32,693 bases of DNA from Xanthobacteraceae bacterium (GTDB taxonomy: Bacteria; Pseudomonadota; Alphaproteobacteria; Rhizobiales; Xanthobacteraceae), in assembly GCA_019745775.1 (NCBI GenBank), contig JAIESR010000037.1:1-32693 (forward strand), read 5' to 3'. Below, piece by piece: positions 3,395-26,793 of this stretch. Position numbers and translations under genes: made by a program. The notes under the pieces are model-generated. The model was not told the origin of the DNA. It made no database searches and saw only the letters and a list, made by a program, of their open reading frames with translations. Each line of letters opens with the position of its first letter. Position 1 is the first letter of the stretch.

Positions 3395-3481
3395 GTAGTC
3401 TCTTCTGCTCCTGTAGGAAATTGCAATCGGATCGAGGGTCGGCGAGTATTGCGCCAACGTCAAGACAAGAAGGAAACGCCG
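3395..3481. promoter_or_regulatory. Divergent intergenic region, isochorismatase-like / Bug-like pair
   Basis: An 87-bp gap between divergent genes must hold promoters for both directions. AAGAAGGAAA at about 3466-3475 serves as the ribosome binding site of the plus-strand gene. I see no convincing -35/-10 pair or perfect palindrome. Confidence 0.3.
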
Positions 3482-6687: not shown

Positions 6688-7527
6688 TCAATCCCCGGGG
6701 GCTTTCGGGGTCGGCCAGCCGCGTTCCTGCTTCACGGTCTTGATCACTTCCTTGATGACCCCGCAGAGCGGCAGGCTGAGGCGCGCGGCGTCGGCCTCCT
6801 TGAGCACGATGGTCATATCCTTTTCCGCCCACGGCATCGGCTTCTCCTCCGGCCGCGTTTCCAGTGACCAGTTGCCGGCGCTGGAGTCGAGCAGCGCGGT
6901 GCGCAGCGTCTCGCGCTCGATACCGAGCGCCTGCGCGAGCTTGAAGCCTTCCTCGTTCGCGGAGATGCAGGCCCACAGGATCAGGTTGTTGACCATCTTA
7001 CCGACCTGACCGGCGCCCACGGGGCCGAGATGGTGGATCGACGTCGCGAAGCTCTCGAACGCCGGCCGGCAGGCGTCGAACGCCGCGCGATCGCCGCCGC
7101 CCATGATCAGCAAGTCGCCGGTTTGCGCCGGGCCTTCGCCGCGGCAGAGCGGGATATCGAGCAGCGCGACTTTCGGAGACGCCGGAAGCCTCGACGCAAT
7201 GCGCTGCATGGTCTGCGGCGCGATGGTCGAGGCGACCGCGATCACGCTGCCGTCGCGCGCGCCGGCGAGCACGCCGCGCTCGCCGAACATCACCGCCTCG
7301 ACCTCCTGGTCGAAACCGACCACGATAATGACGAGATCGCTCGCGGCGGCGACCGCCTGCGGCGACAGCGCGGTCCGCACGCCGGCTTCGGCGGCGCCCT
7401 CCATGGCGTCTTCGGTGACGTCGAAACCCGCGACGGTGAAGCCGCGCTTTACCAGATGGCGCGCCATCGGCAGGCCCATTTTGCCGAGCCCGATCAGGCC
7501 CACATTGCGAATTTCCTTCGGTGCCAC
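6688..7527 (-). CDS. NAD(P)-dependent 3-hydroxyisobutyrate dehydrogenase-family oxidoreductase
   Basis: This 279-aa cytoplasmic enzyme belongs to the beta-hydroxyacid dehydrogenase family (3-hydroxyisobutyrate, tartronate semialdehyde and related). The Rossmann motif GLIGLGKMGLPMA lies at residues 10-22, and the catalytic lysine is K177 in GAGQVGKMVNN. The substrate-loop motif usually written D-A-P-V-S-G-G reads DIPLCRG (124-130), so the substrate may differ from the type enzymes. I chose a GTG start at 7527 because GAGGAG lies 5-6 nt upstream; the frame is open to 7611 but that extension looks non-coding. It diverges from the Bug gene at 7651 and precedes the Bug gene at 6633. Its place between two transporter receptors suggests a small hydroxy-acid catabolic unit. 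Confidence 0.88.
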   Translation of the reverse strand: MAPKEIRNVGLIGLGKMGLPMARHLVKRGFTVAGFDVTEDAMEGAAEAGVRTALSPQAVAAASDLVIIVVGFDQEVEAVMFGERGVLAGARDGSVIAVASTIAPQTMQRIASRLPASPKVALLDIPLCRGEGPAQTGDLLIMGGGDRAAFDACRPAFESFATSIHHLGPVGAGQVGKMVNNLILWACISANEEGFKLAQALGIERETLRTALLDSSAGNWSLETRPEEKPMPWAEKDMTIVLKEADAARLSLPLCGVIKEVIKTVKQERGWPTPKAPGD

Positions 7528-7650
7528 GGCGTCTCCTCTGAGCGTTTCGGCTGCGCCGCATCGTCGCTGGCGGCTGTGCACGGCATCGGCCTTCGCATAG
7601 ACTTGATGCATTCAAGAGCACCAAGAAACGTTGCAAGCAAGGAGGATCAC
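7528..7650. promoter_or_regulatory. Divergent promoter region with short inverted repeat
   Basis: A 123-bp region between divergent genes. It contains the inverted repeat CTTGA-tgcat-TCAAG (arms 7602-7606 and 7612-7616), about 35 bp before the plus-strand start. AAGGAGG at 7639-7645 is a strong ribosome binding site for the GTG at 7651. A regulator such as GntR could bind the repeat, but none is encoded nearby. Confidence 0.35.
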
Positions 7651-8634
7651 GTGACGCGACCGTTTGGCGCGCTGCTCGCCGCCATGCTCTTCGTCAGTCC
7701 GGGCATCCAGGGAATTTCATCCGCCGCCGCGCAGGACTGGCCCAACAAGCCGGTGCGCATCGTCAACACCTTCGCACCCGGCGGCGCCGCCGACTACCTC
7801 GCGCGCACCATCGCCGACGGTCTCTCCAGTACGTTCGGCCAGCAGTTCTTCGTCGAAACGCGCTCCGGCGCGGCCGGCGCGATCGGCGTCAACTCGGTGG
7901 TGTCGACGCCGCCCGACGGCTACAACTTCGTGATCACCAACATCACCATGCTGGTGCTGGCGCCGATCTCAAATCCGCGGCTCGGCTATCATCCCGAGCG
8001 CGATCTCACCAACCTCGCCTATCTCGGCGGCTCGCCGGTCGTGCTGTCGGTCAACGCGAAGAGCCCGATCAAGTCGCTCGCCGACTTCATCGCGCACGGC
8101 AGGAAGGCCGGAAAGCCTTTGACCTATTCGTCGTCCGGTGTCGGCTCGAGCGGGCATCTGTTCGGCGAGACCTTCGCGCGCAAAGTCGGGATCAAGGTCG
8201 AGCACGTGCCCTATAAGGGCGCGGCGCAGGGCCTGCTCGATCTCGTCGGCGGGCATATCGAATGGTCGGCGCAGACCGTCACGTCGTCGGCCGGACAAAT
8301 CCGCGGTGGCACGTTGCGCGGGATCGCCATGACGGCCAAGCAGCGGATGCCCGACTATCCCGACACGCCGACATTCGCCGAGCTCGGCCATCCGGAATTC
8401 AATACGCCGATCTGGTTCACGCTGTCGGCGCCGAAGGGGCTCCCGCAACCGATCGTCGACAAGATGAACGGCGAGATCAACAAGATCATGACCGCGCCGG
8501 CAATGGTCGAACGCATGCAGAAGGAAGGCATGGTGGTGGAGGCGATGACGCCGGCGCAGCTGCAACAGCTGATCGAGACCGAGACGCGCTTCTGGCGCCC
8601 GGCGATCGAGCAGGCGGGGCTGATGCAGAAGTAG
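7651..8634 (+). CDS. Tripartite tricarboxylate transporter (Bug-family) substrate-binding protein
   Basis: This 327-aa protein is a Bug receptor with a Sec signal peptide (about 1-29, cleavage near SAAAQ-DWP). The mature part opens WPNKPVRIVNTFAPGGAAD, followed by RSGAAGAIGVNSVV and PPDGYNFVITN. Family marks VEHVPYKGAAQGLLDLVGGHI and the C-terminal FW in TRFWRPAIEQAG are present. The start is GTG at 7651 with AAGGAGG 5 nt upstream. An in-frame ATG at 7608 would add 14 residues ahead of the signal peptide and is less likely. It is the fifth Bug-type gene in 8.6 kb. Ligand unknown. Confidence 0.9.
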   Translation: MTRPFGALLAAMLFVSPGIQGISSAAAQDWPNKPVRIVNTFAPGGAADYLARTIADGLSSTFGQQFFVETRSGAAGAIGVNSVVSTPPDGYNFVITNITMLVLAPISNPRLGYHPERDLTNLAYLGGSPVVLSVNAKSPIKSLADFIAHGRKAGKPLTYSSSGVGSSGHLFGETFARKVGIKVEHVPYKGAAQGLLDLVGGHIEWSAQTVTSSAGQIRGGTLRGIAMTAKQRMPDYPDTPTFAELGHPEFNTPIWFTLSAPKGLPQPIVDKMNGEINKIMTAPAMVERMQKEGMVVEAMTPAQLQQLIETETRFWRPAIEQAGLMQK

Positions 8635-9062: not shown

Positions 9063-10181
9063 ATGGCCGGTGAACCCGAAAATCAACGCATCACGCGGCT
9101 GACGCCGCTCGACGATGTGCTCTCCGCGATCAACGCGACCGCGCCGGTCGCGCCGCGCGCCGTCGATCTGTCGAAGGCGCTCAACCGCGTGCTGGCCGAG
9201 GATGTCGTCGCCGCCGCCGGGCAGCCGGCCGGGCCGCTCGCGCTGCGCGACGGCTATGCCGTCCGTGCCGAAGACATCGCTGACGCCGGCTCGTACGCGC
9301 CGGCGCCGCTCGCCGCAGCGCCGGTTCGGGTCGATGTCGGCGACGCGCTGCCGCCGGGCACCGACACCGTTGTGCCGCTCGAAGCGGTCGCCAGCCAGGG
9401 CGGCCGCTTCGAAGCGCTTGCGGCGGCTGCCGCCGGCGATGGCGTGCTTCCAGGCGGCGCCGATCTCCAGGCCGGCGATTTCATCGCGCGTGCAGGATGG
9501 CGGCTCAACGATTTCAATCTTGCGATGCTGGCAATGGCCGGCAAGGCGCAGGTACAGGCGCGCGAGCCGCGCATCCGTCTTGTGAAGGCGCGTGCCGTCG
9601 CCGACGTCGTGCTCGACGCGGTCGGTGATCTCCTGGCGCGTGCGCTGGACGCGCGCGGCTGCGCCGTGCGCCGTAGCGCCGGTGATCTTCCTGCGGCGCT
9701 TGCGGATACGTCGCACGATGCCGTCATCGGCATTGGCGGCACCGGCAGCGGCCGCGACGACGCAAGCGTCGACATGCTCGCCACGCATGGCCGTGTGACC
9801 GTGCATGGCGTTGCGATCTCGCCGGGCGAGACCGCGGCCTTTGGCGTGAGCGGCGACCGCGCGGTGCTCCTGCTGCCGGGGCGGATCGATGCGGCGATCG
9901 CGGCCTGGCTTACGATGGGAATGCCGCTGATCGACCGTCTCGAAGGTAGCAGCGAAGGTTCCGACCCGTCGTCCGTTTCGAAGCTCGCGCGCAAAGTCGC
10001 GTCGCCGATCGGCCTCGTGGAGGTCGTTCCGGTGCGCCTGACGAAGCACGGCGCGGAGCCCATAGCCTCGGGCTATTGGCCATTGGCGCCACTCGCTAAC
10101 ACGGACGGCTGGATTCTGGTGCCCGCCAACAGTGAAGGTTTGCAAGCGGGAAGCGAGGTCGTGATAAGACCGTGGCCATGA
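9063..10181 (+). CDS. Short MoeA-like molybdopterin-binding protein
   Basis: This 372-aa protein resembles MoeA, which inserts molybdenum into molybdopterin, but lacks parts of it. The N-terminal MoeA segment is recognisable (LSKALNRVLAEDVVA, then LRDGYAVRAED at 61-71 and GDALPPGTDTVVPLEAV). The usual PPFDNSAVDGYA reads GPLALRDGYAVRA, so the PPFDNS half is lost. The central domain is shortened: instead of a full STGDE / SGG.S.G.D series there is IGIGGTGSGRDDASVD. It ends with a recognisable domain IV. It overlaps the next gene, itself a MoeA fusion, by 4 bp. The pair may act as a heteromer or as sensors, which is inference. Similar pairs occur in Rhizobiales as I recall. Confidence 0.7.
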   Translation: MAGEPENQRITRLTPLDDVLSAINATAPVAPRAVDLSKALNRVLAEDVVAAAGQPAGPLALRDGYAVRAEDIADAGSYAPAPLAAAPVRVDVGDALPPGTDTVVPLEAVASQGGRFEALAAAAAGDGVLPGGADLQAGDFIARAGWRLNDFNLAMLAMAGKAQVQAREPRIRLVKARAVADVVLDAVGDLLARALDARGCAVRRSAGDLPAALADTSHDAVIGIGGTGSGRDDASVDMLATHGRVTVHGVAISPGETAAFGVSGDRAVLLLPGRIDAAIAAWLTMGMPLIDRLEGSSEGSDPSSVSKLARKVASPIGLVEVVPVRLTKHGAEPIASGYWPLAPLANTDGWILVPANSEGLQAGSEVVIRPWP

Positions 10182-12166
10182 GCGACCGTTTGGACAAGAA
10201 CGCCGCGAACCGCGACCTCATCGATATGATCCGCCGCGCGGCGCGGCAGGAGCAGTTCCTCGAAGTTGTTTCCGCCGACGAAGCGCGCGCGCGTTTTGCG
10301 CGCCATGTCGACTTTGCACCGCTACCGGCGGAGCGTGTCGTGCTGGCGGCATCGCTCGGCCGCGTGCTTGCGCACGACGTCAAGGCGCCGATCGACGTGC
10401 CGCCGTTCGATCGTTCCAACGTCGACGGCTTCGCGCTGCGCGCCGTCGACACCCTGGGCGCAAGCGACACCGCGCCGAAGCGGCTTCGTCTCAACCCGGA
10501 GGTCGTGGTGTGCGGTCACGCGCCGACCGCGGGTGTCGAAACCGGCACCGCGACCACCATCGCCACCGGCGGTGTGGTGCCGCGGGGTGCCGACGCCGTC
10601 GTCATTATCGAGCAGACCGAGCTGGTCGAAGGCGGCGACGCAGCGGTCGATGTGCGCCGCGCCGCCGCGCCGGGGCAATTCGTTTCCTATGCCGGCTCCG
10701 ACATCGCGCGCGGCGAAGTGGTGCTGCGGCGCGGCGCGCGCATCGGCTCGCGCGAGATCGGCATGCTGGCAGCCTGCGGCGTCGCCGAGGTCGATGTCGT
10801 GCGCCGGCCACGCGTCGCCGTGCTTTCGACCGGCGACGAGCTGGTGCGGCCGGGCGAGCCGCTGCGGCCCGCTGCGGTCTACGATTCCAATGGCGCGATC
10901 GTCGCGGCGGCAGTGCAGGAGGCCGGCGGTGAGGCGGTTCCGTTCGGCAGCTTCCCGGATGACGAGATCACGCTCGAGCTCGCAATCCATGCGGCACTCG
11001 AATCCTGCGACTTGGTCCTGCTGTCGGGCGGTACCTCGAAGGGCGCCGGCGATCTCTCGCATCGCGTGGTGTCGCAGCTCGGCGAGCCCGGCGTGGTCGT
11101 GCATGGCGTCGCCCTCAAGCCCGGCAAGCCGCTCTGCCTCGCGGTGGCCGGAGGCAAGCCGCTGGTGGTGCTGCCGGGATTTCCGACCTCGGCGATCTTC
11201 ACGTTTCATGCCTTCGTCGCACCGGTCATCCGCGCCAAAGCCGGCCTGCCGTCGGAAGCCTTGCGCAGCGTCGAGGCCGACGTGCCGGTGCGCATTCCCT
11301 CCGAGCTTGGCCGCAAGGAGTTCGTGCTGGTCGCGCTGGTCGCGGGCGAGCAGCGACCGGTCGCCTTTCCGACCGCCAAGGGCTCGGGCTCGGTGACGAG
11401 CTTCTCGCAAGCCGACGGCTTTCTGGAGATCGACGCGCTCGCCTCGTCGCTCGATGCCGGCACGCGCGCCTCGGTCACGCTGATCGGCCAGGCGGCGGCG
11501 ATGCCCGACCTTATCGTCACCGGCTCGAACGACATCGCGCTCGACATCGTCGTCGGCAAGCTCGCCGAGCAGGGACTTACCACGCGCACGATCGCGGTCG
11601 GCAGCCTCGGCGGCGTCGCCGCGGCGGAGCGCGGCGAATGCGATCTCGCGCCCGTGCACCTCGTCGATCCCGCGACCGGCGCCTACAACGAGCATCTGTT
11701 GAAGCCGGGCTTGTCGCTGGCGAAAGGCTGGCAGCGCATGCAGGGCTTCGTCTTCCGCAAAGGCGACGCACGCTTCGAGGGCCGCACCGCGCAGGAGGCG
11801 GTGGCAGCCGCGCTCGCCGACGCGCAGTGCCTGATGGTCAACCGCAACGCCGGCGCCGGCACGCGCGTGCTGATCGACAAGCTGCTCGGCGGCAAGCGCC
11901 CGCCCGGCTATTCGAACCAGCCGCGCTCGCACAACGCGGTCGCCGCCGCCGTGGCGCAGGGCCGCGCCGACTGGGGCGTGTCGACCTCGTCGGTGGCGGA
12001 ACTCTACGGGCTGGGGTTCCTCTTCATGGCGCCGGAGGAATACGATTTCCTGGTGGTCGAGAGCCGCCGCAGCCGGCCGGCGGTGCAGGCCTTTCTGGCG
12101 GCGCTGCGTGACGACGGCGTGCGCGCGCAGATCGCGGCGCTCGGCATGCGCCCCGCCGATGCCTGA
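10178..12166 (+). CDS. MoeA fused to a periplasmic-binding-protein-like (molybdate-binding type) domain
   Basis: This 662-aa protein joins two modules. Residues about 30-445 are MoeA: VPPFDRSNVDGFALR (74-88), PRGADAVVIIEQTE, STGDELVRPGEPL, LLSGGTSKGAGDLSHRV, ALKPGKPLCLA and LPGFPTSAIFTFHAF. Residues about 446-660 form a PBP-like domain of the COG1910 type (VTGSNDIALDIVVGKLAEQ, then GSLGGVAAAERGECDLAPVHLVDP, NRNAGAGTRVLIDKLLGG and AVAAAVAQGRADWGVS). There is no signal peptide, so it acts in the cytoplasm. The family is proposed to sense a Mo or cofactor species and insert metal. The ATG at 10178 overlaps the upstream stop (ATGA); a GTG at 10172 is an alternative. MoeA plus PBP is a known architecture; its exact function is not settled. 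Confidence 0.85.
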   Translation: MSDRLDKNAANRDLIDMIRRAARQEQFLEVVSADEARARFARHVDFAPLPAERVVLAASLGRVLAHDVKAPIDVPPFDRSNVDGFALRAVDTLGASDTAPKRLRLNPEVVVCGHAPTAGVETGTATTIATGGVVPRGADAVVIIEQTELVEGGDAAVDVRRAAAPGQFVSYAGSDIARGEVVLRRGARIGSREIGMLAACGVAEVDVVRRPRVAVLSTGDELVRPGEPLRPAAVYDSNGAIVAAAVQEAGGEAVPFGSFPDDEITLELAIHAALESCDLVLLSGGTSKGAGDLSHRVVSQLGEPGVVVHGVALKPGKPLCLAVAGGKPLVVLPGFPTSAIFTFHAFVAPVIRAKAGLPSEALRSVEADVPVRIPSELGRKEFVLVALVAGEQRPVAFPTAKGSGSVTSFSQADGFLEIDALASSLDAGTRASVTLIGQAAAMPDLIVTGSNDIALDIVVGKLAEQGLTTRTIAVGSLGGVAAAERGECDLAPVHLVDPATGAYNEHLLKPGLSLAKGWQRMQGFVFRKGDARFEGRTAQEAVAAALADAQCLMVNRNAGAGTRVLIDKLLGGKRPPGYSNQPRSHNAVAAAVAQGRADWGVSTSSVAELYGLGFLFMAPEEYDFLVVESRRSRPAVQAFLAALRDDGVRAQIAALGMRPADA

Positions 12167-12187
12167 TTTCCTGCTACAGTCGTGACG

Positions 12188-13468
12188 ATGGCTCGCGTTC
12201 GTATGGCTCTAGCTGTTGCTGTTCTTGTGGCGGGCGCCGCCGCGGCGCACGCGCAATTGCGCGGTCACGGCGGTCCGGTGCGGGCGCTCGCGATCGCGCA
12301 GGACGGCAAGTCGGCGATGTCCGGCAGCTTCGACACCTCCGCGATCCGCTGGTCGCTGGAGAGGGGCGCCGCGTCGGAAGTGCTGCGCTTCCATGACGGC
12401 GCGGTCAACGCGGTGGCGTTGCTGGGCGATGGCCGCGCCGCGTCCAGCGGCGAAGACACCCGCATTGCGATCTGGAAGCCGGGCGAAGCGAAACCGATTG
12501 CCATGCTCGAAGGCCACAAGGCGCCGGTGGTGTCACTCGCCGTGTCGGGCGACGGCACGACGCTCGCGTCTGCATCGTGGGATCGCACCGCGCGGCTGTG
12601 GCCGCTGGCCGGTGGCGGTCCGCGGGTGCTCGAAGGCCACAAGGATAATGTGAACAGCGTCGCCTTCACGCCCGACGGCAAGTCGGTCGTCACCGCGGCC
12701 TACGACGCGACGCTGCGCATTTGGCCGCTCGTAGGCGGTGCGCCCGAAGTGGTCACGCTGCCGACTCCACTTAACACCGTGGCGATTGCGCCGGATGGCG
12801 AGATCGTCGCCGCCGGCGCCGACGGCAAGGTCTATTTCCTCACCGCCGCCGGAAAGCTGAGAGGCGACGTCGAGGTCGGCACCGTGCCGATCATTGCCGT
12901 TACGATATCGAGCGACGGCAAGCTCGTCGCCGCCGCCGGCATCCGCGGCTCGGTCGCGATCATCGATCGCGCGACGCGCAATCTCGAACGCACGCTGGTC
13001 GGCCCGGGACTGCCGGTCTGGTCGGTGGCGTTCTTTCCCGACAGCCGCACGCTGCTTACCGGCGGCACCGACCGGATGATCCGTCGCTGGGATGCGATCA
13101 CGGGCGAGCCGATCGGCGACGTGCTTGCCGGCGCGCCGGAGGATCCGCTGGCAGCTTACGCGGGCGATCCCGGCGCCGAGGTCTACCGCGCCTGCGTCGC
13201 CTGCCACACCCTCAACGGCAAGGATGGCGTGCGTGCCGGCCCGACGCTCGCCGGCATATTCGGCCGCAGGATCGCGTCGCTGCCCGGCTACAATTTCTCC
13301 GAGGCGCTCCGGAAGATGGACATCGTCTGGACGCCGGAGACGGTGTCGAAGCTGTTCGAGGTCGGGCCGAACGAGTACACGCCCGGCACCAAGATGCCGG
13401 AGCAGCGCATCGGTTCGCCTGAGGATCGCGCCGCGCTGATGCGGTTCCTGGAGAAGGCGACGAAGTAG
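12188..13468 (+). CDS. Exported WD40 beta-propeller fused to cytochrome c
   Basis: This 426-aa protein begins with a Sec signal peptide (about 1-23, cleavage near AHA-QLR). Seven WD40-like blades follow, each with a (L)xGHxxxVxxxAxxxDG-type start; the clearest are LEGHKAPVVSLAVSGDG and LEGHKDNVNSVAFTPDG. Seven blades make a complete propeller. The C-terminus (about 325-426) is a class I cytochrome c: C336-V-A-C-H340 binds heme, GPTLAGIFGR follows, and M403 in PGTKMPEQ is the likely axial ligand. It acts in the periplasm. The propeller probably docks a partner redox protein. The start is ATG 12188 (GTG 12182 alternative), 16-22 bp after the MoeA fusion, so cotranscription is likely. Partner unknown; the neighbouring formate dehydrogenase is one candidate. 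Confidence 0.88.
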   Translation: MARVRMALAVAVLVAGAAAAHAQLRGHGGPVRALAIAQDGKSAMSGSFDTSAIRWSLERGAASEVLRFHDGAVNAVALLGDGRAASSGEDTRIAIWKPGEAKPIAMLEGHKAPVVSLAVSGDGTTLASASWDRTARLWPLAGGGPRVLEGHKDNVNSVAFTPDGKSVVTAAYDATLRIWPLVGGAPEVVTLPTPLNTVAIAPDGEIVAAGADGKVYFLTAAGKLRGDVEVGTVPIIAVTISSDGKLVAAAGIRGSVAIIDRATRNLERTLVGPGLPVWSVAFFPDSRTLLTGGTDRMIRRWDAITGEPIGDVLAGAPEDPLAAYAGDPGAEVYRACVACHTLNGKDGVRAGPTLAGIFGRRIASLPGYNFSEALRKMDIVWTPETVSKLFEVGPNEYTPGTKMPEQRIGSPEDRAALMRFLEKATK

Positions 13469-18429: not shown

Positions 18430-19172
18430 ACGATCCGGAGAATTTCCTGACGCGCTGGTCGCGCCGCAAACGCGAAGAGGCGGCCGAGCCTGATCGCGCG
18501 AGCGACGAGAAGGACGTGCAAGGCGGTTCGGAAGCAACGGCCGCCGAGCAGAGCGCCGGCGATGCACCACCGCTTCCAGCGACGGGCGACAACCCGGCAG
18601 AACCTGAATTCGACCTTTCGACGCTGCCGCCGATCGAGACGATCGTGGCAGAAACCGACATTCGTGCTTTTCTCCGGCCCGGCGTGCCGGCGGAACTCCG
18701 TCTTGCGGCGCTTCGCCGCGCGTGGGTCGCCGATCCCAAGGTGCGGGATTTTGTCGGGCTCAACGACTACGACTTCGATTTCCACACCCCCGGCGCGATC
18801 CCCGGTTTCGGCGCGCTGGAAATGACGGACGAGCTGCGTCAGGAGGTGGCCCGGATGATCTCAGGGTGGCAGCCGGAGCCCGAGCAGGCCGTCGCGCGAT
18901 CGGCGGACGAGACGGCATCCGAGCCGGCGCCCACGGTTTCACCAGTGCAACCCGCGGTGTCGACTGTGGAAACAAGCGCGCCCTCAGCGCGCGGGACACT
19001 GGAGGTTGACAAAGGTGCAGATCAGGTCGCGCCGCCTCAAGATGAATTGATGACCGATAAAGCAAAAGCGCAGCGCAATAAAGACTATGCTGCGGCGCAA
19101 CAACAGCATTCGGAATCGGAAAATCTGCAAAAACTTGCAAGGCGCGGCCACGGTCGCGCTTTGCCCAAGTAA
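18426..19172 (+). CDS. DUF3306 domain-containing protein
   Basis: This 248-aa protein matches DUF3306. The N-terminus FLTRWSRRKREEA (7-19) is the family signature. It is followed by a low-complexity acidic linker rich in Ala, Glu and Pro, then a folded core about residues 68-148 (FDLSTLPPIETIVAETDI, FLRPGVP, LRRAWVADPKVRDFVGLNDYDFDF). The C-terminal half is again disordered-looking and ends HGRALPK, as in relatives. DUF3306 proteins accompany FdhA/TorD genes; a role in dehydrogenase assembly is inferred from context. The start overlaps DUF3305 by 4 bp. After it comes a 93-bp AT-rich gap, so the accessory operon may end here. Confidence 0.85.
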   Translation: MNDPENFLTRWSRRKREEAAEPDRASDEKDVQGGSEATAAEQSAGDAPPLPATGDNPAEPEFDLSTLPPIETIVAETDIRAFLRPGVPAELRLAALRRAWVADPKVRDFVGLNDYDFDFHTPGAIPGFGALEMTDELRQEVARMISGWQPEPEQAVARSADETASEPAPTVSPVQPAVSTVETSAPSARGTLEVDKGADQVAPPQDELMTDKAKAQRNKDYAAAQQQHSESENLQKLARRGHGRALPK

Positions 19173-19265
19173 TACTATTGACCATAGGGATAGACTATTG
19201 ACCCACGGACAGTCGCATGGGCAAACTTCCGGAAATTAAATTGGAATAACAAAAAAGTTCCTTCC
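19173..19265 (+). promoter_or_regulatory. Promoter/operator region with two 20-bp-phased direct repeats
   Basis: This 93-bp gap before the HTH-TorD gene is AT-rich compared with the surrounding genes. ACTATTGACC occurs twice, at 19174-19183 and 19194-19203, exactly 20 bp apart (two helical turns). Each copy contains TTGACC, which resembles a -35 element, but no good -10 sits at the usual distance. A palindrome TTCCGGAA lies at 19227-19234. No purine-rich ribosome binding site precedes the ATG at 19266. The phased repeats look like binding sites for a dimeric HTH protein, possibly the product of the next gene. Confidence 0.5.
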
Positions 19266-20045
19266 ATGCGCGATGAGGGCCTCGACGAAGCGATTCGTGC
19301 CGCCGGCGGCGTCGGCGCGCTTGCCCGAAAAATTGGCATCTCCCAACCGTCAGTATCGAACTGGTCGCGCATCCCAGCCGAGCGCGTGGTCGCCATCGAA
19401 GCGGCGACCGGTGTCGATCGCAGCGTGCTGCGCCCTGACCTCTACGGCGAGCGGCAGCCCAACGCCGGCGACCCCGAGGAAGTCGATGCCGCGCGCTCCC
19501 AGGAATACACGCTGCTCGCCGCGCTGCTGGCGCGCGCCCCCGATCAGGCCTTGCTCGATCGCCTCGCGACATTGCGTGGCGATCCGTCGCCGCTCGGCGT
19601 TGCGCATGCCGCGCTCGCGGATGCGGCCAGCCGCATGACCTCCGATCGCGTCGAGCGCGAGTATTTCAACCTCTTCATCGGCCTTGGGCGCGGAGAACTG
19701 CTGCCCTATGGCTCGTATTATCAGTCAGGATTTCTGTACGAGCGCCCACTGGCGCGGCTGCGCGAGCAGCTCTCGCGGCTCGGCATCGAGCGCGCGGACG
19801 GGGAGTCCGAGCCCGAAGATCACGCGGCGATCCTGTGTGAGATCATGGCCGGTCTCATCAATGGGCGCCTGGCCGCCGAAGTCGGCGCCGACCGCGATCT
19901 CTTCGAGAACCATCTTTCGCCCTGGATCGGACGATTCTTCGCCGATCTGGAGCAAGCCGAAGCGGCCGAGTTCTACCGTCACGTCGGAACGCTCGGTCGT
20001 CTGTTCGTGGACATCGAGACTGAGGCTTTCGCGCTGCCGTCATGA
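19266..20045 (+). CDS. HTH (YdaS/Cro-like) domain fused to TorD-family molybdoenzyme chaperone
   Basis: This 259-aa cytoplasmic protein has two parts. Residues 1-60 form a Cro/YdaS-type helix-turn-helix (GGVGALARKIGISQPSVSNWSRIPAERVVAIEAATGVDR). Residues about 75-255 are an all-helical TorD/DmsD chaperone domain, with the mark EYFNLFIGLGRGELLPYGSYYQSGFLYERPL and later EDHAAILCEIMAGLI. TorD proteins hold molybdoenzymes and their Tat signals until the cofactor is loaded; here the client is surely FdhA. The fused HTH suggests the chaperone can also bind DNA, perhaps the phased repeats just upstream. It lies 37 bp before the small Tat gene. The absence of a ribosome binding site is odd. Both domains are recognised with confidence; the regulatory role is inferred. 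Confidence 0.85.
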   Translation: MRDEGLDEAIRAAGGVGALARKIGISQPSVSNWSRIPAERVVAIEAATGVDRSVLRPDLYGERQPNAGDPEEVDAARSQEYTLLAALLARAPDQALLDRLATLRGDPSPLGVAHAALADAASRMTSDRVEREYFNLFIGLGRGELLPYGSYYQSGFLYERPLARLREQLSRLGIERADGESEPEDHAAILCEIMAGLINGRLAAEVGADRDLFENHLSPWIGRFFADLEQAEAAEFYRHVGTLGRLFVDIETEAFALPS

Positions 20046-20082: not shown

Positions 20083-20295
20083 ATGAAGCAAGAGCGCAAG
20101 GCGAGTAGGGTCGGCCGGCGTGAGTTCCTTCGTACGCTTGGCGTAGGTACCGCAGCGGCTGCGGCCAGCACGCCGTTTGTCGGTCCGGCCGCCGCCGACA
20201 CCGAAAGCAACGACGAAAAGCGGAAGGCGCGCTACCAGCCGAACTCGGCCGAGGTGCAGACCTTCTATCGTGTCAACCGCTATCCCACGAAGTAA
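20083..20295 (+). CDS. Formate dehydrogenase-region small Tat-signal protein
   Basis: This 70-aa protein has a twin-arginine signal (VGRREFLRTLGVGTAAAAAS, residues 10-29) and a short, charged C-terminal part ending NSAEVQTFYRVNRYPTK. It matches the small family annotated as formate dehydrogenase region TAT-sorted signal protein (TIGR02811-type). A strong ribosome binding site (AAGGGAGG) precedes the ATG. It sits 14 bp before fdhA and is probably cotranslated with it. Its role is not known; it may be a small subunit or an export partner for the dehydrogenase. Confidence 0.85.
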   Translation: MKQERKASRVGRREFLRTLGVGTAAAAASTPFVGPAAADTESNDEKRKARYQPNSAEVQTFYRVNRYPTK

Positions 20296-20309: not shown

Positions 20310-23249
20310 ATGCTGATCAAGCGAACGGAACGTCAGGCCCGCCGCGGTGTGCTTGCGCAAGGGCTGCCGGGCCAATCCGACGCCGGCCTCGATCGCCGGT
20401 CGTTTTTGCGCCGCTCCGGCCTGGTCGCCGGCGGTCTTGCCGCTCTCGGCAGCCTGCCGCTGGCCAGCGTCCGCAAGGCGGAAGCCGGCCCGCCGGCCAA
20501 GCCGGGCGCTGCGGTCACCATCCGCAAGAACGTCTGCACGCACTGTTCGGTCGGCTGCACCGTGATCGGCAAAGTATCGCAAGGCGTGTGGATCGGGCAG
20601 GAGCCCGGCTGGGACTCGCCGATCAATCGCGGATCGCACTGCGCCAAGGGTGCGGCGGTGCGCGAGCTCGTGCATGGCGACCGCCGGGTGAAGTACCCGA
20701 TGAAGCTGGTCAACGGTCAATGGACCAAGATTTCCTGGGACACCGCGATCAACGAGATCGGCGACAAGCTGAACGCGATCCGCGCCAAATCCGGACCGGA
20801 GTCGGTCTACTGGCTCGGCTCCGCGAAGTTCACCAACGAAAGCGCCTATCTGTACCGCAAGTTTGCGGCCTATTGGGGCACCAACAACGTCGATCATCAG
20901 GCGCGCATCTGCCATTCGACCACGGTCGCCGGCGTCGCCAATACCTGGGGCTACGGCGCGCAGACCAACAGCTACAACGACATCCGCAACGCCAAGACCA
21001 TGATCATCATGGGCGGCAATCCGGCGGAAGCGCATCCGGTGTCGCTGCAGCACCTGCTCGAAGGCAAGGAGCTTAATCGGGCGAACTACATCGTGATCGA
21101 GCCGCGGCTCACGCGCACGGCGGCACATGCGACGGAATACGTCCGCATCCGCTCCGGCACCGACATTCCGGTGATCTACGGGATCCTCTGGCACATCTTC
21201 CGCAACGGCTGGGAAGACAAGCAGTTCATCGAACAGCGCGTCTACGGCATGGAGGACGTGCGCAAAGAAATCGAGAAGTGGAATCCGGAGGAGGTCGAGC
21301 GTGTCTCCGGCGTGCCGGGCGCTCAGCTTGAGCGCGTCGCCAAGATGTTCGCCACCGAGAAGCCCGCCACGCTGATCTGGTGCATGGGCGCGACCCAGCA
21401 CACGGTCGGTACCGCCAACGTCCGCGCATTCTGCATTGCGTTGCTTGCGACCGGTAACGTCGGCTCGTTCGGCACAGGCGCCAACATATTCCGGGGCCAC
21501 TGCAATGTGCAGGGCGCCACCGATCTCGGCCTCGATATCGTGACGCTGCCGCTGTACTACGGCCTCGTGGAGGGCGCCTGGCGGCATTGGTGCCGTGTCT
21601 GGGAAGTCGACTACGACTGGATGCTCTCCCGCTTCGATTCGAAGGAGGCGATGGAGACCGCCGGGATTCCGTCGACCCGCTGGTTCGACGCGACATTGCT
21701 GCCGCAGAAGGAAGTCCGTCAGAAGGACAACCTGAAAGCCATGATGGTGTTCGGGCATGGCGGCAACACCGTCACCCGCATGCCGAAGGCGGCCGAGGGC
21801 ATCGCCGCGCTCGACCTGCTGGTGGTGGCCGACCCGCACCCGACCACCTGGGCGGTGCTCGGAGAGCGCAAGGATAACACCTACCTGCTGCCGACCTGCA
21901 CTTCGTTTGAGAGCGACGGCTCGCGCACCGCGTCGAACCGTTCGATCCAGTGGGCCGAGCAGGTCGTCAAGCCAATCTTCGAATCGAAGAACGACAACGA
22001 GGTGATGTATCTTCTTGCGCGCAAACTCGGCTTTGCCGACCGGATGTTCAAGAACATCAAGGTCAACGGCACCGAGCCCGTCGCCGAAGACATCCTGCGC
22101 GAGATCAACCGCGGGGGCTGGTCGACCGGCTACTGCGGCCAGTCGCCGGAACGCCTGAAGGCGCACATGAAGAACCAGGACAAATTCGACCTGGTGACCC
22201 TGCGCGCGCCGAAGGACATCCCCGAAATCGGCGGCGACTACTACGGCCTGCCATGGCCGTGCTGGGGTACGCCCGAACTTCGGCATCCCGGCACGCACAC
22301 GCTGTACAACACCAGCCTGCACGTCATGGACGGCGGCGGCACGTTCCGCGCCCGCTTCGGCGTGGAGCGTGAGGAGAAGCTGGCCGACGGCACGGTCCGC
22401 AAGGTCAGTCTCCTGGCGAACGGGTCATACTCGCTGGGCTCCGAGATCCGGGATGGCTACCCCGAATTCACCTACGGGGTGTTGAAGAAGCTCGGCTGGG
22501 ACGGCGAACTCACCGAGACCGAGCGGACCACGATTGAACGCGTCGGCGGCAAGAACCCGGACGGCGTGTCCTGGGCCACCGATCTTTCGGGCGGCATCCA
22601 GCGCGTCGCCATGGCACACGGCTGCATCCACTATGGCAACGGCAAGGCCCGCGCCAACGCGTGGAACCTGCCGGATGCGATCCCGGTGCATCGTGAGCCG
22701 ATCTACACCCCGCGGCCCGAGCTGGTCGCGAAGTACCCGACCTTGCCGAACGCGGTGCAGTTCCGCGTTCCCAATGTCGGCTTCGATCTGCAGAAGGCCG
22801 CGGTGGAGAAGGGGATCGCGAAGCAGTTCCCGCTCATCAACACCTCCGGCCGTCTGGTCGAATACGAAGGCGGAGGCGAGGAGACGCGGTCCAACAAGTG
22901 GCTCGCCGAGCTCCAGCAGGACATGTTCATCGAGATCAATCCTGCGGACGCGGCCGAGCGCGGCATCAAGGACGGCCAGTTCGTTCTGGTCACCGGTCCG
23001 GAGATGCCGGCCGGGCGTGCGTGTCGCATGAAAGCGCTGGTGACGGAACGCGTCGGCAAGGGCGTGACCTGGTGTCCGTTCCACTTCGCCGGCTGGTTCA
23101 TGAACGTCGACCAGCGCAGCAAGTATCCGAAGGGCGCCGATCCCATCGTGCTCGGTGAAAGCGTCAACATCGTCACCGGCTACGGCTACGATCCGGTCAC
23201 CGGAATGCAGGAGCCGAAGGCCATGCTCTGCCAGGTCAGGGCAGCTTAA
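20310..23249 (+). CDS. fdhA: Formate dehydrogenase, catalytic alpha subunit (Mo-bisMGD, Cys-type, Tat-exported)
   Basis: This 979-aa protein oxidises formate to CO2 in the periplasm. It has a Tat signal (DRRSFLRRSG, 28-37), then a [4Fe-4S] site at C76, C79, C83 and C111 (CTHCSVGC...SHCAKG). The Mo ligand is C201 in ARICHSTTVAG, with the catalytic His at 202; the codon is TGC, so this is a cysteine enzyme and not a selenoprotein. The motif GAQTNSYNDI (216-225) corresponds to GAMTNHWVDI of E. coli FdnG. Mo-bis-MGD-binding segments follow (IIMGGNPAEAHPVS, YVRIRSGTDIPVIYG, C-terminal GVTWCPFHFAGW). It is led by a GGGAG ribosome binding site and followed 14 bp later by fdhB. Length and order fit the FdnGHI/FdoGHI type. 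Confidence 0.95.
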   Translation: MLIKRTERQARRGVLAQGLPGQSDAGLDRRSFLRRSGLVAGGLAALGSLPLASVRKAEAGPPAKPGAAVTIRKNVCTHCSVGCTVIGKVSQGVWIGQEPGWDSPINRGSHCAKGAAVRELVHGDRRVKYPMKLVNGQWTKISWDTAINEIGDKLNAIRAKSGPESVYWLGSAKFTNESAYLYRKFAAYWGTNNVDHQARICHSTTVAGVANTWGYGAQTNSYNDIRNAKTMIIMGGNPAEAHPVSLQHLLEGKELNRANYIVIEPRLTRTAAHATEYVRIRSGTDIPVIYGILWHIFRNGWEDKQFIEQRVYGMEDVRKEIEKWNPEEVERVSGVPGAQLERVAKMFATEKPATLIWCMGATQHTVGTANVRAFCIALLATGNVGSFGTGANIFRGHCNVQGATDLGLDIVTLPLYYGLVEGAWRHWCRVWEVDYDWMLSRFDSKEAMETAGIPSTRWFDATLLPQKEVRQKDNLKAMMVFGHGGNTVTRMPKAAEGIAALDLLVVADPHPTTWAVLGERKDNTYLLPTCTSFESDGSRTASNRSIQWAEQVVKPIFESKNDNEVMYLLARKLGFADRMFKNIKVNGTEPVAEDILREINRGGWSTGYCGQSPERLKAHMKNQDKFDLVTLRAPKDIPEIGGDYYGLPWPCWGTPELRHPGTHTLYNTSLHVMDGGGTFRARFGVEREEKLADGTVRKVSLLANGSYSLGSEIRDGYPEFTYGVLKKLGWDGELTETERTTIERVGGKNPDGVSWATDLSGGIQRVAMAHGCIHYGNGKARANAWNLPDAIPVHREPIYTPRPELVAKYPTLPNAVQFRVPNVGFDLQKAAVEKGIAKQFPLINTSGRLVEYEGGGEETRSNKWLAELQQDMFIEINPADAAERGIKDGQFVLVTGPEMPAGRACRMKALVTERVGKGVTWCPFHFAGWFMNVDQRSKYPKGADPIVLGESVNIVTGYGYDPVTGMQEPKAMLCQVRAA

Positions 23250-23263
23250 GGGAGGAATGAACC

Positions 23264-23860
23264 ATGGCTCGCATGAAATTCCTCTGCGACGCGGACCGCT
23301 GCATCGAGTGCAACGCCTGCGTCACCGCCTGTAAGAACGAGCATGAGGTGCCTTGGGGCATCAACCGGCGCCGTGTCATCACCATCAATGACGGCAAGCC
23401 CGGCGAACGCTCGGTCTCGATGGCCTGCATGCACTGTACCGACGCGCCCTGCGCCGCGGTGTGCCCGACCAACTGCTTCTACACCACGGCCGACGCGGTG
23501 GTCCTGCACTCCAAGGACCTGTGCATCGGCTGCGGCTATTGCTTCTACGCGTGCCCGTTCGGCGCGCCGCAGTATCCGCGGGTGGGCAACTTCGGATCGC
23601 GCGGCAAGATGGACAAGTGCACCTTCTGCGCCGGCGGCCCGGAGGCCGACAACACGCAGGCCGAATTCGTCAAGTACGGCACCAACCGGCTCGCGGAAGG
23701 CAAGCTCCCGCTGTGCGCCGAGATGTGCTCGACGAAATCGCTGCTCGCCGGCGACGGGGAGATCATCGCCCAGATCTACAAGGAGCGCGTGGTCAAGCGC
23801 GGCTACGGCTCCGGCGCCTGGGGATGGCGGACCGCCTATCGCGAAACGATCGCGACCTAG
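23264..23860 (+). CDS. fdhB: Formate dehydrogenase beta subunit (four [4Fe-4S] clusters)
   Basis: This 198-aa protein relays electrons from FdhA to FdhC. Sixteen cysteines form four ferredoxin-type sites: C13/16/19/23, C55/58/63/67, C87/90/93/97 and C119/122/151/155. This matches FdhB/FdoH of the Fdh3 type. Unlike E. coli FdnH it lacks a C-terminal membrane helix and is shorter, as is common in alphaproteobacteria. It has no signal of its own and probably crosses the membrane as a passenger bound to FdhA. GGGAGG lies 8 nt before the ATG. The fdhC start follows 42 bp after its stop. Confidence 0.95.
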   Translation: MARMKFLCDADRCIECNACVTACKNEHEVPWGINRRRVITINDGKPGERSVSMACMHCTDAPCAAVCPTNCFYTTADAVVLHSKDLCIGCGYCFYACPFGAPQYPRVGNFGSRGKMDKCTFCAGGPEADNTQAEFVKYGTNRLAEGKLPLCAEMCSTKSLLAGDGEIIAQIYKERVVKRGYGSGAWGWRTAYRETIAT

Positions 23861-23902: not shown

Positions 23903-24922
23903 ATGACGGCATTTCTCGCGCGCATTCGTGCCGCCGTCGGTGTGTTGGTGCTGCTCGCGGCGGTCATTGCGGCGGCTCCTTCGGGGGCGCAGCAAAAGAA
24001 TCCCGACGGCTCCGTCAACCCGACCGCAAGCGCGGTGCGGGAAGAGCAGCTGTTCAAGGAGATGGACCGGATCACCGGCCGTTGCACGCTGCCCGACCAG
24101 AAGGCCTGCACGCTCGAGCAGCCGGCCGGCCGCGACTGGCGCTACTTCAGTCAGGTGACGCTGCCGTGGATCGGCGCCATCGCCATCCTCGGCATGCTCG
24201 CCGTGCTGGTGCTGTTCTATCTGTTCCGCGGCATGGTTCGGATCGAGGCCGGGCGCTCCGGCCGCACCGTGGTGCGGTTCAACGCGTTCGAGCGTTTCGT
24301 GCACTGGATGACGGCAGCCTGCTTCATCGTGCTGGCGCTCTCGGGCCTCAATATCACCTTCGGCAAGGATCTGCTGTTGCCGCTGATCGGTCCCGACGCC
24401 TTCACCACTTGGGCGCAATGGGCGAAATATGCGCACAACTATCTGAGCTTCCCCTTCACCATCGGCGTGGTGCTGATCCTCCTGATGTGGATCGGCGGCA
24501 ATATCCCCAATCGCACCGACGTCGCGTGGGTCAAGGAAGGCGGCGGTATCGTCGGCCACGGGCATCCGCCGGCCAAGCGCTTCAACGCCGGCCAGAAGCT
24601 GATCTACTGGATCGTCGTCATCGGCGGCGCCGCGGTTGCGATCACCGGCTACATCCTCATGTTCCCGTTCTGGGGCGGTACCAGCATCGTGGGCATGCAG
24701 ACCGCGGCAGTGATCCACGGCATCGTCGGCGTGCTGTTCGTCGCCGCCATGCTCGGTCACATCTATATCGGCACCATCGGCATGGAAGGTGCCTTTGAGG
24801 CCATGGGCACGGGCACCGTGGACGAGAACTGGGCAAAGCAGCACCACAGCCTTTGGCTCGAGGAAGAGAAAGCCAAGGGCAAGGTCGAAGCGCCGGCCGG
24901 GCGGATGCAGCCGGCGGAATAG
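23903..24922 (+). CDS. fdhC: Formate dehydrogenase gamma subunit (membrane cytochrome b556)
   Basis: This 339-aa membrane protein anchors the complex and passes electrons to quinone. An N-terminal signal-like helix (about 8-30, ending PSGAQQ) precedes a periplasmic segment. Four membrane helices follow near residues 85-112, 129-153, 184-208 and 228-255, plus a helix pair at the C-terminal end. Likely heme b ligands are the histidines in ERFVHWMTAACF, KYAHNYLSF and the later AAVIHGIVG and LGHIYIG segments. The cytoplasmic tail ends with TGTVDENWAKQHHSLWLEEE, typical of FdoI relatives. GGGAG precedes the ATG. A hairpin after the gene may end the fdh transcript. Confidence 0.92.
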   Translation: MTAFLARIRAAVGVLVLLAAVIAAAPSGAQQKNPDGSVNPTASAVREEQLFKEMDRITGRCTLPDQKACTLEQPAGRDWRYFSQVTLPWIGAIAILGMLAVLVLFYLFRGMVRIEAGRSGRTVVRFNAFERFVHWMTAACFIVLALSGLNITFGKDLLLPLIGPDAFTTWAQWAKYAHNYLSFPFTIGVVLILLMWIGGNIPNRTDVAWVKEGGGIVGHGHPPAKRFNAGQKLIYWIVVIGGAAVAITGYILMFPFWGGTSIVGMQTAAVIHGIVGVLFVAAMLGHIYIGTIGMEGAFEAMGTGTVDENWAKQHHSLWLEEEKAKGKVEAPAGRMQPAE

Positions 24923-24991: not shown

Positions 24992-25519
24992 ATGCGCGTT
25001 ATCGGCCTCGCCGGCTGGAGCGGCTCCGGCAAGACGACACTGCTGACCAAACTGATCCCGTGTCTGGTGGCGCGGGGGCTCGCGGTCTCGACCCTCAAGC
25101 ACGCCCATCACGGATTCGACGTGGATCAGCCCGGCAAGGACTCGCACAGCCACCGCATGGCGGGTGCGACCGAGGTGCTGATCGGCTCGGCCACGCGGTT
25201 CGCCCTTGTGCATGAGCTGCGCGGCGCGGCGGAGCCCACACTGCACGATCTGCTGGCGCGGATGTCGCCGGTCGATCTGGTGGTGGTCGAGGGCTACAAG
25301 GCGGCGCCGATCCCGAAGCTCGAAGTGCATCGTGCTGCCGTCGGCAAGCCGCTGCTGCACCCGGACGACGACTGCATCGTCGCGGTCGCCTCCGACGCGC
25401 CACTGCCGAAGGTCGAGCTGCCGGTGGTTTCGCTCGACGATATCGAGACGATCGCTGACATCGTGACGGTCGAGTCAGCGCCGCTGGCAGACGTACTGTC
25501 ACCGCAAGGCGCCGCCTGA
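24992..25519 (+). CDS. mobB: Molybdopterin-guanine dinucleotide biosynthesis protein MobB
   Basis: This 175-aa GTP-binding protein aids MobA in making the guanine dinucleotide form of the Mo cofactor. It has the P-loop GWSGSGKTTL (8-17), then the family motif STLKHAHHGFDVDQPGKDS, a SHRMAGATEVLI segment, and the VVVEGYKAAPIPKLEV motif near residue 98. Length is normal. Its stop shares one base with the moeA start (TGATG), so the two are coupled. The 5' side lacks a ribosome binding site. FdhA needs bis-MGD, which explains its position after fdhABC. Confidence 0.95.
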   Translation: MRVIGLAGWSGSGKTTLLTKLIPCLVARGLAVSTLKHAHHGFDVDQPGKDSHSHRMAGATEVLIGSATRFALVHELRGAAEPTLHDLLARMSPVDLVVVEGYKAAPIPKLEVHRAAVGKPLLHPDDDCIVAVASDAPLPKVELPVVSLDDIETIADIVTVESAPLADVLSPQGAA

Positions 25520-26793
25520 TGGCACAGCTCTCCGACGACTGTTTTGCGTTTGGCGGCGCGCTGCTCCCTGTTGCCGAGATGGAGCGGATGATCGTCGACC
25601 GCGTCATGCCGGTCACGGAAACCGAGACCGTGCCGCTCGCGGCCGCGCACGGCCGCGTCGTCGCCGAGGATATCCTCGCGCCGATCAACCTGCCGCCGTT
25701 CGACAATTCGGCGGTGGACGGATTCGCGGTGCGGCATGCCGATCTTGCCGCGACTGGCGACACCCGCCTGAAGGTGGTCGATCGCATCACCGCGGGCCGC
25801 GCCGCGACCCGCGCGCTCGGCGCCGGCGAGGCGATCCGCATCTTCACCGGCGCGCCGATGCCGGCAGGGGCCGACACCGTGTTCATGCAGGAGGACACCC
25901 GCGTCGAGGGCGACACGGTGATGGTGCCGCCCGGCTTGAAGCGCGGCGCCAACAGCCGCGCCGCCGGCGAGGACTTGCGCGCAAGATCGGTGATGCTGCC
26001 GGCGGGCCGGCGGCTCACCACGTCGCATGTCGCGCTCGCGGCCGCCGTGGGACTCACCGCGCTGCCGGTGCGGCGCCGCGTCCGGGTCGCGGTGTTCTCG
26101 ACCGGCGACGAGATCGTCGAGCCCGGCAGGCCCTTGCCGCCGGCGGCCCTGTTCGACGCCAACCGCTTCCTGCTCGCCGGGCTGATCGAACGCATGGGCG
26201 CGAGCTTCACCGATCTCGGCATCCTGCCCGACGACAAGACGCAGCTTGCGCGCGCCATCGCGGATGCGGCCGCCAGCCATGACCTCGTGCTGACCTCCGG
26301 CGGCGTCTCGACCGGCGAGGCGGATCACGTCCGCGACGCGGTCGAGAGCATCGGCAAGCTCGTGTTCTGGCGGGTCGGCATCAAGCCCGGCCGGCCGGTG
26401 GCGATGGGTGTGATCACGGGCGGGCGGGCGGGCGAGGCCGCCGTCTTCGCCGGCCTTCCCGGCAACCCGGTCGCGGTGTTCGTGACGTTCGCGCGGGTGG
26501 TGCGGCCGCTGCTGCTGCGGCTCGCCGGCGCCGAGGTGCTGCCGCTCATTCCGTTGCCGGTGCGCGCGGGCTTTCCCTACCAGAAGCGCAGCGGCCGGCG
26601 CGAATACGTCCGGGTGCGCCTGGTCCGCAATGCGGATGGGACGGTCGACGCCTTCAAGCACGCGCAGGACGGCGCCGGCGTCATCACCTCGCTGACCGAG
26701 ACCGATGGGCTGATCGAATTGCCGGAAGACGTGACGACGGTCGCGGCCGGCGCCACCGTCGGGTTCTTGTCCTACGCCGCGCTGGCGGAGTAG
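25519..26793 (+). CDS. moeA: Molybdopterin molybdotransferase MoeA (canonical)
   Basis: This 424-aa enzyme inserts molybdate into adenylylated molybdopterin. All main MoeA motifs are present: LPPFDNSAVDGFAVR (58-72), TGAPMPAGADTVFMQED, the GEDLRARSVMLPAG loop, STGDEIVEPGRPLP, TSGGVSTGEADHV, IKPGRPVAMG and GLPGNPVAVFVTF. The C-terminal domain IV (GRREYVRVRL) is intact. It starts on the last base of the mobB stop. It is the third MoeA-type gene in the window and the only one with full canonical motifs and length, so it probably supplies housekeeping or Fdh-directed activity. Confidence 0.93.
   Translation: MAQLSDDCFAFGGALLPVAEMERMIVDRVMPVTETETVPLAAAHGRVVAEDILAPINLPPFDNSAVDGFAVRHADLAATGDTRLKVVDRITAGRAATRALGAGEAIRIFTGAPMPAGADTVFMQEDTRVEGDTVMVPPGLKRGANSRAAGEDLRARSVMLPAGRRLTTSHVALAAAVGLTALPVRRRVRVAVFSTGDEIVEPGRPLPPAALFDANRFLLAGLIERMGASFTDLGILPDDKTQLARAIADAAASHDLVLTSGGVSTGEADHVRDAVESIGKLVFWRVGIKPGRPVAMGVITGGRAGEAAVFAGLPGNPVAVFVTFARVVRPLLLRLAGAEVLPLIPLPVRAGFPYQKRSGRREYVRVRLVRNADGTVDAFKHAQDGAGVITSLTETDGLIELPEDVTTVAAGATVGFLSYAALAE

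Follow-up and report, generated by a model that had tools for sequence, protein, structure and literature searches.

A TorD-type chaperone fused to a Cro/YdaS-type DNA-binding domain, with a candidate operator at its own promoter, in a formate dehydrogenase gene cluster

Related systems and the HTH-TorD protein

Cells must match the production of complex metalloenzymes to their capacity for filling them with cofactor. Transcription set by chaperones and enzymes that regulate their own genes are both known kinds of control. In the systems HspR-DnaK, HrcA-GroEL and SicA-InvF, the client occupancy of a chaperone sets the transcription of chaperone or client genes, with chaperone and regulator being separate proteins. 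Trigger or self-regulating enzymes such as BirA, PutA and NadR bind DNA with the same polypeptide that performs their catalytic or assembly task, and occupancy with the task can therefore set transcription; their signals are small molecules or the membrane state. A fusion of a Tat/Moco chaperone with its regulator, accompanied by a conserved operator, was not found in the literature searched on TorD, MobB and Tat chaperones in conjunction with DNA binding or transcription, nor was any TorD or MobB protein with a DNA-binding domain described there (weak evidence, subscription papers being mostly uncovered). Among phage-type regulators, YdaS binds operators overlapping its own promoter (PMC8630535).

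The window, i.e. the whole stretch of 32,693 nucleotides of Xanthobacteraceae DNA analysed here, carries a gene for a protein of 259 amino acids, HTH-TorD (Table 1), composed of a Cro/YdaS-type HTH (about residues 4–62), a flexible linker (63–69) and a TorD/NarJ-type chaperone domain (72–256). The fusion claimed in an earlier note on this DNA was confirmed by Pfam matches for both domains within the open reading frame: the N terminus matched YdaS_toxin (PF15943; residues 6–62; E 2.7e-17; 62.8 bits vs. a cut-off of 30) and, second, P22_Cro (PF14549; E 1.1e-7; 32 bits vs. 30.2), and residues 107–226 matched Nitrate_red_del/TorD (PF02613; E 1.1e-29; 103.7 bits vs. a curated cut-off of 22.2). When phmmer was run against solved structures, the HTH part retrieved Xfaso1 Cro (3bd1) and the remainder DmsD, TorD and the TorD-family chaperone 9m26. 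The AlphaFold2 model, based on 30 related sequences, displays two helical domains (mean pLDDT 83.5, pTM 0.67) joined by the linker (pLDDT <50). Foldseek assigned the chaperone part, an all-helical TorD fold, to DmsD (3efp_A; E 3.4e-5, TMt 0.68) and YcdY (9m26_C; E 1.1e-4, TMt 0.75), and the HTH part to Xfaso1 Cro (3bd1_A; E 0.01, TMt 0.78). The protein contains YFNLF and EPEDH, corresponding to YxxLF and EPxDH, which we take to be the motifs of the TorD family; P183, E184, D185 and H186 are invariant among the 30 sequences, and the Y of YxxLF is not. In one relative (L060, genome G039), HTH-TorD harbours an internal tandem duplication of 22 residues, with AQEYALLAALLVGAPSADMLQR occurring twice.

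HTH-TorD thus resembles the TorD, DmsD and NarJ maturation proteins in Pfam family, all-helical fold, YxxLF/EPxDH motifs and the location of its gene beside that of a Tat-signal molybdoenzyme. Unlike the solved relatives found (DmsD, YcdY, NarJ and TorD), which match the chaperone part only, it possesses a fused DNA-binding domain, and a matching candidate operator is conserved. With Xfaso1 Cro, P22 Cro and YdaS it shares fold and sequence of the HTH, and its candidate operator, judged by sequence, is palindromic and near the –35 box; unlike these stand-alone phage or prophage regulators (P22-type Cro/YdaS), which are small proteins, its HTH sits on a chaperone encoded in a chromosomal fdh cluster. 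In contrast to HspR-DnaK, HrcA-GroEL and SicA-InvF, chaperone and presumed regulator form a single protein that apparently serves one enzyme only, and the likely signal, unlike those of BirA, PutA and NadR, is an unfinished protein client.

The fusion gene directly precedes a formate dehydrogenase gene cluster in the order small Tat-signal protein, FdhA, FdhB, FdhC, MobB and a MoeA-like gene, and genes for DUF3305 and DUF3306 proteins are located on its 5' side. Comparison of related loci revealed this order to be kept: among HTH-TorD genes for which 450 bp or more of downstream sequence was available, 61 of 67 are followed by the gene for the small Tat-signal protein, and FdhA lies 3' of 36 of the 37 with at least 1 kb, L005 being the sole exception. 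FdhA, the best NCBIfam match of which is Fdh-alpha (below its equivalog cut-off), is the likely client of the TorD domain. Between the moeA genes and the fdh cluster, the window encodes a WD40-repeat protein ending in a cytochrome c domain (12182–13468), and at its left end several Bug/TctC-like solute-binding proteins (252–1271, 3188–5664, 5665–6633 and 7030–8634; translations judged by eye).

Table 1 Features of the window referred to in the text (positions count from the first nucleotide of the window)
Feature	Positions	Strand	Basis or remark
moeA-like gene holding the second palindrome	9063–10181	+	PF03453, PF00994, PF03454
Second palindrome, ATAGCCTCGGGCTAT, candidate second target	10062–10076	+	Inside 3' end of the moeA-like gene, ~95 bp 5' of the next gene's start
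MoeA-PBP fusion gene, possibly controlled from the second palindrome	10172–12166	+	PF03453, PF12727
First ACTATTGACC copy, locus-specific, unconserved	19174–19183	+	Direct repeat in 1 of 134 upstream regions
Predicted operator, 15-bp inverted repeat ATAG-N7-CTAT (ATAGGGATAGACTAT)	19184–19198	+	Conservation upstream of HTH-TorD genes
Predicted –35 box TTGACC, first T = last T of the operator	19198–19203	+	Conserved TTGAC near palindrome
Possible weak –10 box CAAACT	19222–19227	+	Weak; none found by generic promoter scan
HTH-TorD fusion, 259 aa	19266–20045	+	Pfam, AlphaFold2, Foldseek
Small protein with Tat signal, formate dehydrogenase region, TIGR02811-like	20083–20295	+	NCBIfam, 44.3 bits, just below cut-off of 48.45
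FdhA, molybdopterin formate dehydrogenase alpha subunit, twin-arginine signal DRRSFLRRSGL	20310–23249	+	Pfam, NCBIfam
FdhB, 4Fe-4S subunit	23264–23860	+	Pfam Fer4 families
FdhC, cytochrome b gamma subunit	23903–24922	+	TIGR01583, above cut-off
MobB without HTH	24992–25519	+	PF03205
MoeA-like gene 3' of mobB	25519–26793	+	ORF; tblastn similarity to the moeA-like gene at 9063–10181, E 9.2e-7

Candidate operator and promoter of HTH-torD

Of 391 genomes sampled from the family, 177 contain the HTH (E up to 1e-9), and for many of these a regulator of formate oxidation would therefore be predicted; in the class it was detected in 14 of 385 genomes (E up to 1e-5). Further, 85 of 150 relatives matched the fusion protein wholly or in part (E up to 1e-3), and a contig search yielded 24 loci, 10 of them with the HTH. 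The loci analysed represent the fetched part of the genome-search matches. They comprise 155 loci with the HTH, which runs into TorD in 140, into MobB in 10 and into neither in five, one of the latter (L116) being a contig-cut TorD fusion. Removal of L092 (too little upstream sequence) and of exact duplicates left 134 distinct upstream regions: 120 of HTH-TorD genes, one of the cut TorD fusion, nine of HTH-MobB genes and four others.

The earlier note had seen in two copies of ACTATTGACC, placed 20 bp apart, a suitable site for a dimeric HTH protein. Both copies are exact (the second at 19194–19203, start-to-start distance 20 bp), and since dinucleotide shuffling of the 93-bp intergenic stretch, repeated 5000 times, produced a repeated 10-mer in only 0.2 % of cases, the direct repeat is locally improbable by chance. 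Its conservation beside other HTH-TorD genes, however, did not hold: of the 134 distinct upstream regions, that of the window locus alone has the repeat, and even an 87 %-identical relative (L001) carries ACGATGGTC where the first copy would stand. The second copy is accounted for by an operator half-site plus the –35 box. The direct repeat was therefore rejected as operator, a role which now appears highly improbable despite its exactness over 10 bp and its rarity in shuffles.

A different element, the inverted repeat ATAG-N7-CTAT, overlaps the second ACTATTGACC copy, taking in its CTAT, and occurred in 0.14 % of shuffles of the 93-bp stretch. It is located within 250 bp upstream of 110 of the 120 distinct HTH-TorD genes and of 70 of 78 after removal of near-copies, whereas 200 sets obtained by mononucleotide shuffling of the 78 gave 0.16 on average and never more than 2. 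The same half-sites with spacers of 3–6 and 8–11 were found upstream of only 0–2 of the 120 genes. The consensus of 71 dereplicated sites is cATAGCCTnaggCTATTGaCC; its inner bases are moderately conserved, with a symmetry no higher than for independent columns, and the window's own site, ATAGGGATAGACTAT, matches them poorly. The sequence of the candidate operator differs from the GTTTAGTAA-type repeats of PMC8630535. A long form, ATAG-N7-CTATTGAC, occurred six times in 25 genomes (14 with HTH-TorD, eight with HTH-MobB only and three with HTH-less TorD), vs. two occurrences of a reversed-pattern control; all six lie at an HTH-torD promoter. Among nine fusion loci of 5–11 kb (L001–L009), eight contain exactly one ATAG-N7-CTAT, at this promoter; that of L005 lies elsewhere.

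The palindrome is linked to the HTH rather than to TorD. None of 59 HTH-less TorD loci possesses it, and none of the 57 with 420 bp upstream, two loci having shorter upstream sequences (29 and 124 bp); of 65 loci scanned, six (L213–L218) had been set aside as refetched HTH-TorD loci, all with the palindrome. Twenty of the HTH-less loci are from the window's family, 18 of which have 420 bp upstream and a TorD 50–63 % identical to the TorD part of the window protein. Fisher's test gave p of about 2e-36 (110/120 vs. 0/57) and about 1e-13 (70/78 vs. 0/18), values that serve as a guide only, because the sequences are related and the counts thus not independent. Since the palindrome is present at the promoters of most HTH-bearing relatives and absent from the HTH-less ones examined, HTH-TorD probably controls its own gene cluster, and autoregulation may be regarded as well supported by comparison of sequences. 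The earlier proposal that HTH-TorD acts at its own promoter accordingly gains the conserved inverted repeat (110/120 vs. 0/57) as its basis and loses the direct repeat.

Exceptions bear on the alternative that the palindrome is bound by another fdh regulator, and that the HTH on TorD binds elsewhere or only aids dimerisation of the chaperone. The HTH is found without the exact palindrome in seven of nine HTH-MobB loci and in 10 of the 120 HTH-TorD loci, as this alternative would have it. Among the latter, L113 and L126 deviate by one mismatch; L049 has a damaged HTH (recognition region and LRPDLYG changed); L176, L179 and L181 have diverged HTHs; L005 also lacks FdhA downstream; and L059, L061 and L094 are without explanation. 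L063, not one of these ten, has lost the HTH; like L049 it retains CTATTGACC and lacks the ATAG half. This decay of one half-site along with the HTH favours the candidate operator, an argument weakened by two HTH-MobB loci (L114 and L120) that likewise keep CTATTGACC and lack ATAG beside an intact HTH. Yet the palindrome tracks the HTH even between two TorD copies of one genome, as observed in four genomes (G168, G185, G389 and G399) with a palindrome-bearing HTH-TorD and a palindrome-free HTH-less copy, and it is absent from the 18 same-family HTH-less genes mentioned above. Binding by another regulator is consequently considered improbable. Three HTH-TorD genes from other families of the class (L176, L179 and L181) encode diverged HTHs (45–57 % identical) and have no ATAG palindrome; they perhaps represent separate fusions with other operators.

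The promoter of the window was deduced from conservation, a generic sigma-70 consensus scan of 19000–19400 having found none. Of 111 loci (the 110 HTH-TorD loci with palindrome plus the contig-cut TorD fusion), 83 have TTGAC no more than 45 bp past the centre of the palindrome, and a hexamer beginning with TA follows 16–18 bp past it in 71 of these 83. The distance from palindrome centre to the first T of TTGAC is 7 bp in 48 loci and 15–18 bp in 31 (37 and 15, respectively, after dereplication), so that in 79 of the 111 loci the palindrome takes up either of two positions relative to TTGAC, separated by about one helical turn. Four further distances are 0, 0, 23 and 27; of the two loci at 0, L104 also has TTGAC at 7 and L127 does not. 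In loci with TTGAC, most candidate operators thus overlap the –35 box or lie next to it, an arrangement that is not universal, since 28 of the 111 loci lack TTGAC within the 45 bp. A 10-codon open reading frame at 19218 of the window was dismissed, as L001 has no counterpart of its ATG. A second inverted repeat, GAA-N3-TTC, lies near the expected transcription start in 26 of 79 dereplicated HTH-torD upstream regions (e.g., L003, L044 and L060), mostly 39–56 bp past the centre of the palindrome, vs. a mean of 2.2 and a maximum of 7 in shuffles; it presumably resembles an Irr iron-control box.

Proposed control circuit and further palindromes

The reading preferred here, which appears reasonably probable, is that of an autoregulatory chaperone, probably a repressor released when its TorD domain holds apo-FdhA. 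HTH-TorD would serve both as Tat-proofreading and Moco-insertion chaperone for FdhA and as dedicated local transcription factor. A dimer of the Cro-type HTH would bind ATAG-N7-CTAT, which in most relatives abuts or overlaps the –35 box. The promoter concerned would drive HTH-torD and presumably also the fdhABC-mobB-moeA genes behind it, and the free protein would most likely repress it. Filling of the TorD domain by the signal peptide of unfinished FdhA would weaken DNA binding, and the operon, including genes for chaperone and cofactor functions, would be turned up until the backlog is cleared. If so, the chaperone is itself the transcription factor and reads the assembly backlog without a separate sensor. 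Candidate operator, promoter and natural losses of the HTH render the design directly testable with one protein, 60 bp of DNA and one signal peptide.

Repression is favoured because the –35 box beside the operator is near-consensus; close-to-consensus –35 boxes are seldom found in activator-dependent promoters. The sign could conversely be positive, with free HTH-TorD acting as an activator of fdh in the manner of lambda CI at OR2, and accumulating apo-FdhA sequestering it and thereby switching the operon off; this is the logic of the earlier note, in which fdh expression is matched to unfilled dehydrogenase. The palindrome centre would then lie at about –42/–44 or –52/–54 (reckoned from the –35 box and dependent on the –10 spacing), and two positions about one helical turn apart are what an activator touching RNA polymerase should show; PMC8630535 describes a CI-type protein that activates from a site close to –35. 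Besides the quality of the –35 box, retention of CTATTGACC despite the damaged HTH of L049 and the missing one of L063 speaks against activation. On balance, activation seems rather unlikely.

HTH-TorD may have a second target. The only further exact ATAG-N7-CTAT in the window, ATAGCCTCGGGCTAT, is located within a moeA-like gene. Five genomes of the genus (G000, G002, G003, G004 and G005) share the 18 bases CCC ATA GCC TCG GGC TAT without a difference, even though the four other site-bearing moeA-like genes are 46–77 % identical to that of the window and flanking codons differ; ATA is a rare codon (5 of 216 Ile codons in 14 open reading frames of the window). The palindrome was absent from 21 other moeA-like homologues, one of which (G006) is from the same genus and without the fusion, and in G005 it is present in a draft genome in which no HTH-TorD was found. 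Looser-type palindromes occur within a moeA-like gene of G033 and just upstream of one in G044. This conservation suggests a second target, on weaker evidence than that for the fdh site.

A broad regulon was considered and rejected. The pattern ATAGCCTNNNGCTAT with at most one mismatch yielded eight matches in the own genome vs. 10 for the reversed control. The stricter ATAGSCNNNGSCTAT gave 0–7 sites per genome in 34 genomes (controls 0–3); the high counts (4–7) are from G003, G004 and G005, which belong to the window's genus. Eight HTH-TorD genomes from outside it contained eight sites vs. six in the control. A palindrome 5' of a tupB-like permease gene near HTH-mobB in G217 was dropped, because it is not kept in G322 (permease 92 % identical) or at seven other loci, and palindromes in G267, G049, G022, G030 and G019 have no shared context.

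HTH fusions with MobB and other enzymes

Nine distinct loci from nine genomes encode a fusion of the same HTH (67–77 % identical) with MobB; eight of these genomes are devoid of TorD of this type (E up to 1e-25) and G064 has both. ATAGG-N5-CCTAT is present upstream of two of the nine HTH-MobB loci, and the other seven have no palindrome despite a same-looking recognition helix; nor was the exact ATAG-N7-CTAT found upstream of moeA in seven HTH-MobB genomes. A tree of the HTH required three changes of partner between TorD and MobB, three being forced by well-supported branches; with 64 columns and 125 rows it offers few columns and a rough bootstrap, and some changes may be losses (L049, L116, L176, L179, L181 and identical HTHs were left out). 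These findings tentatively point to a portable Cro-type module that would have switched several times between TorD and MobB, generating direct sensors of waiting enzyme or cofactor that set fdh and moeA transcription. HTH-MobB would then carry the principle from the enzyme to cofactor supply.

Two further fusions of a YdaS-type HTH were observed in other genomes of the class, one with an EPSP-synthase-family enzyme (MurA by eye; L182:247–1713, minus strand) and one with a bifunctional NAD(P)HX epimerase/dehydratase (YjeF_N plus Carb_kinase; L177:1–1701, minus strand). The YdaS-type HTH may thus be a general plug-in on enzymes.
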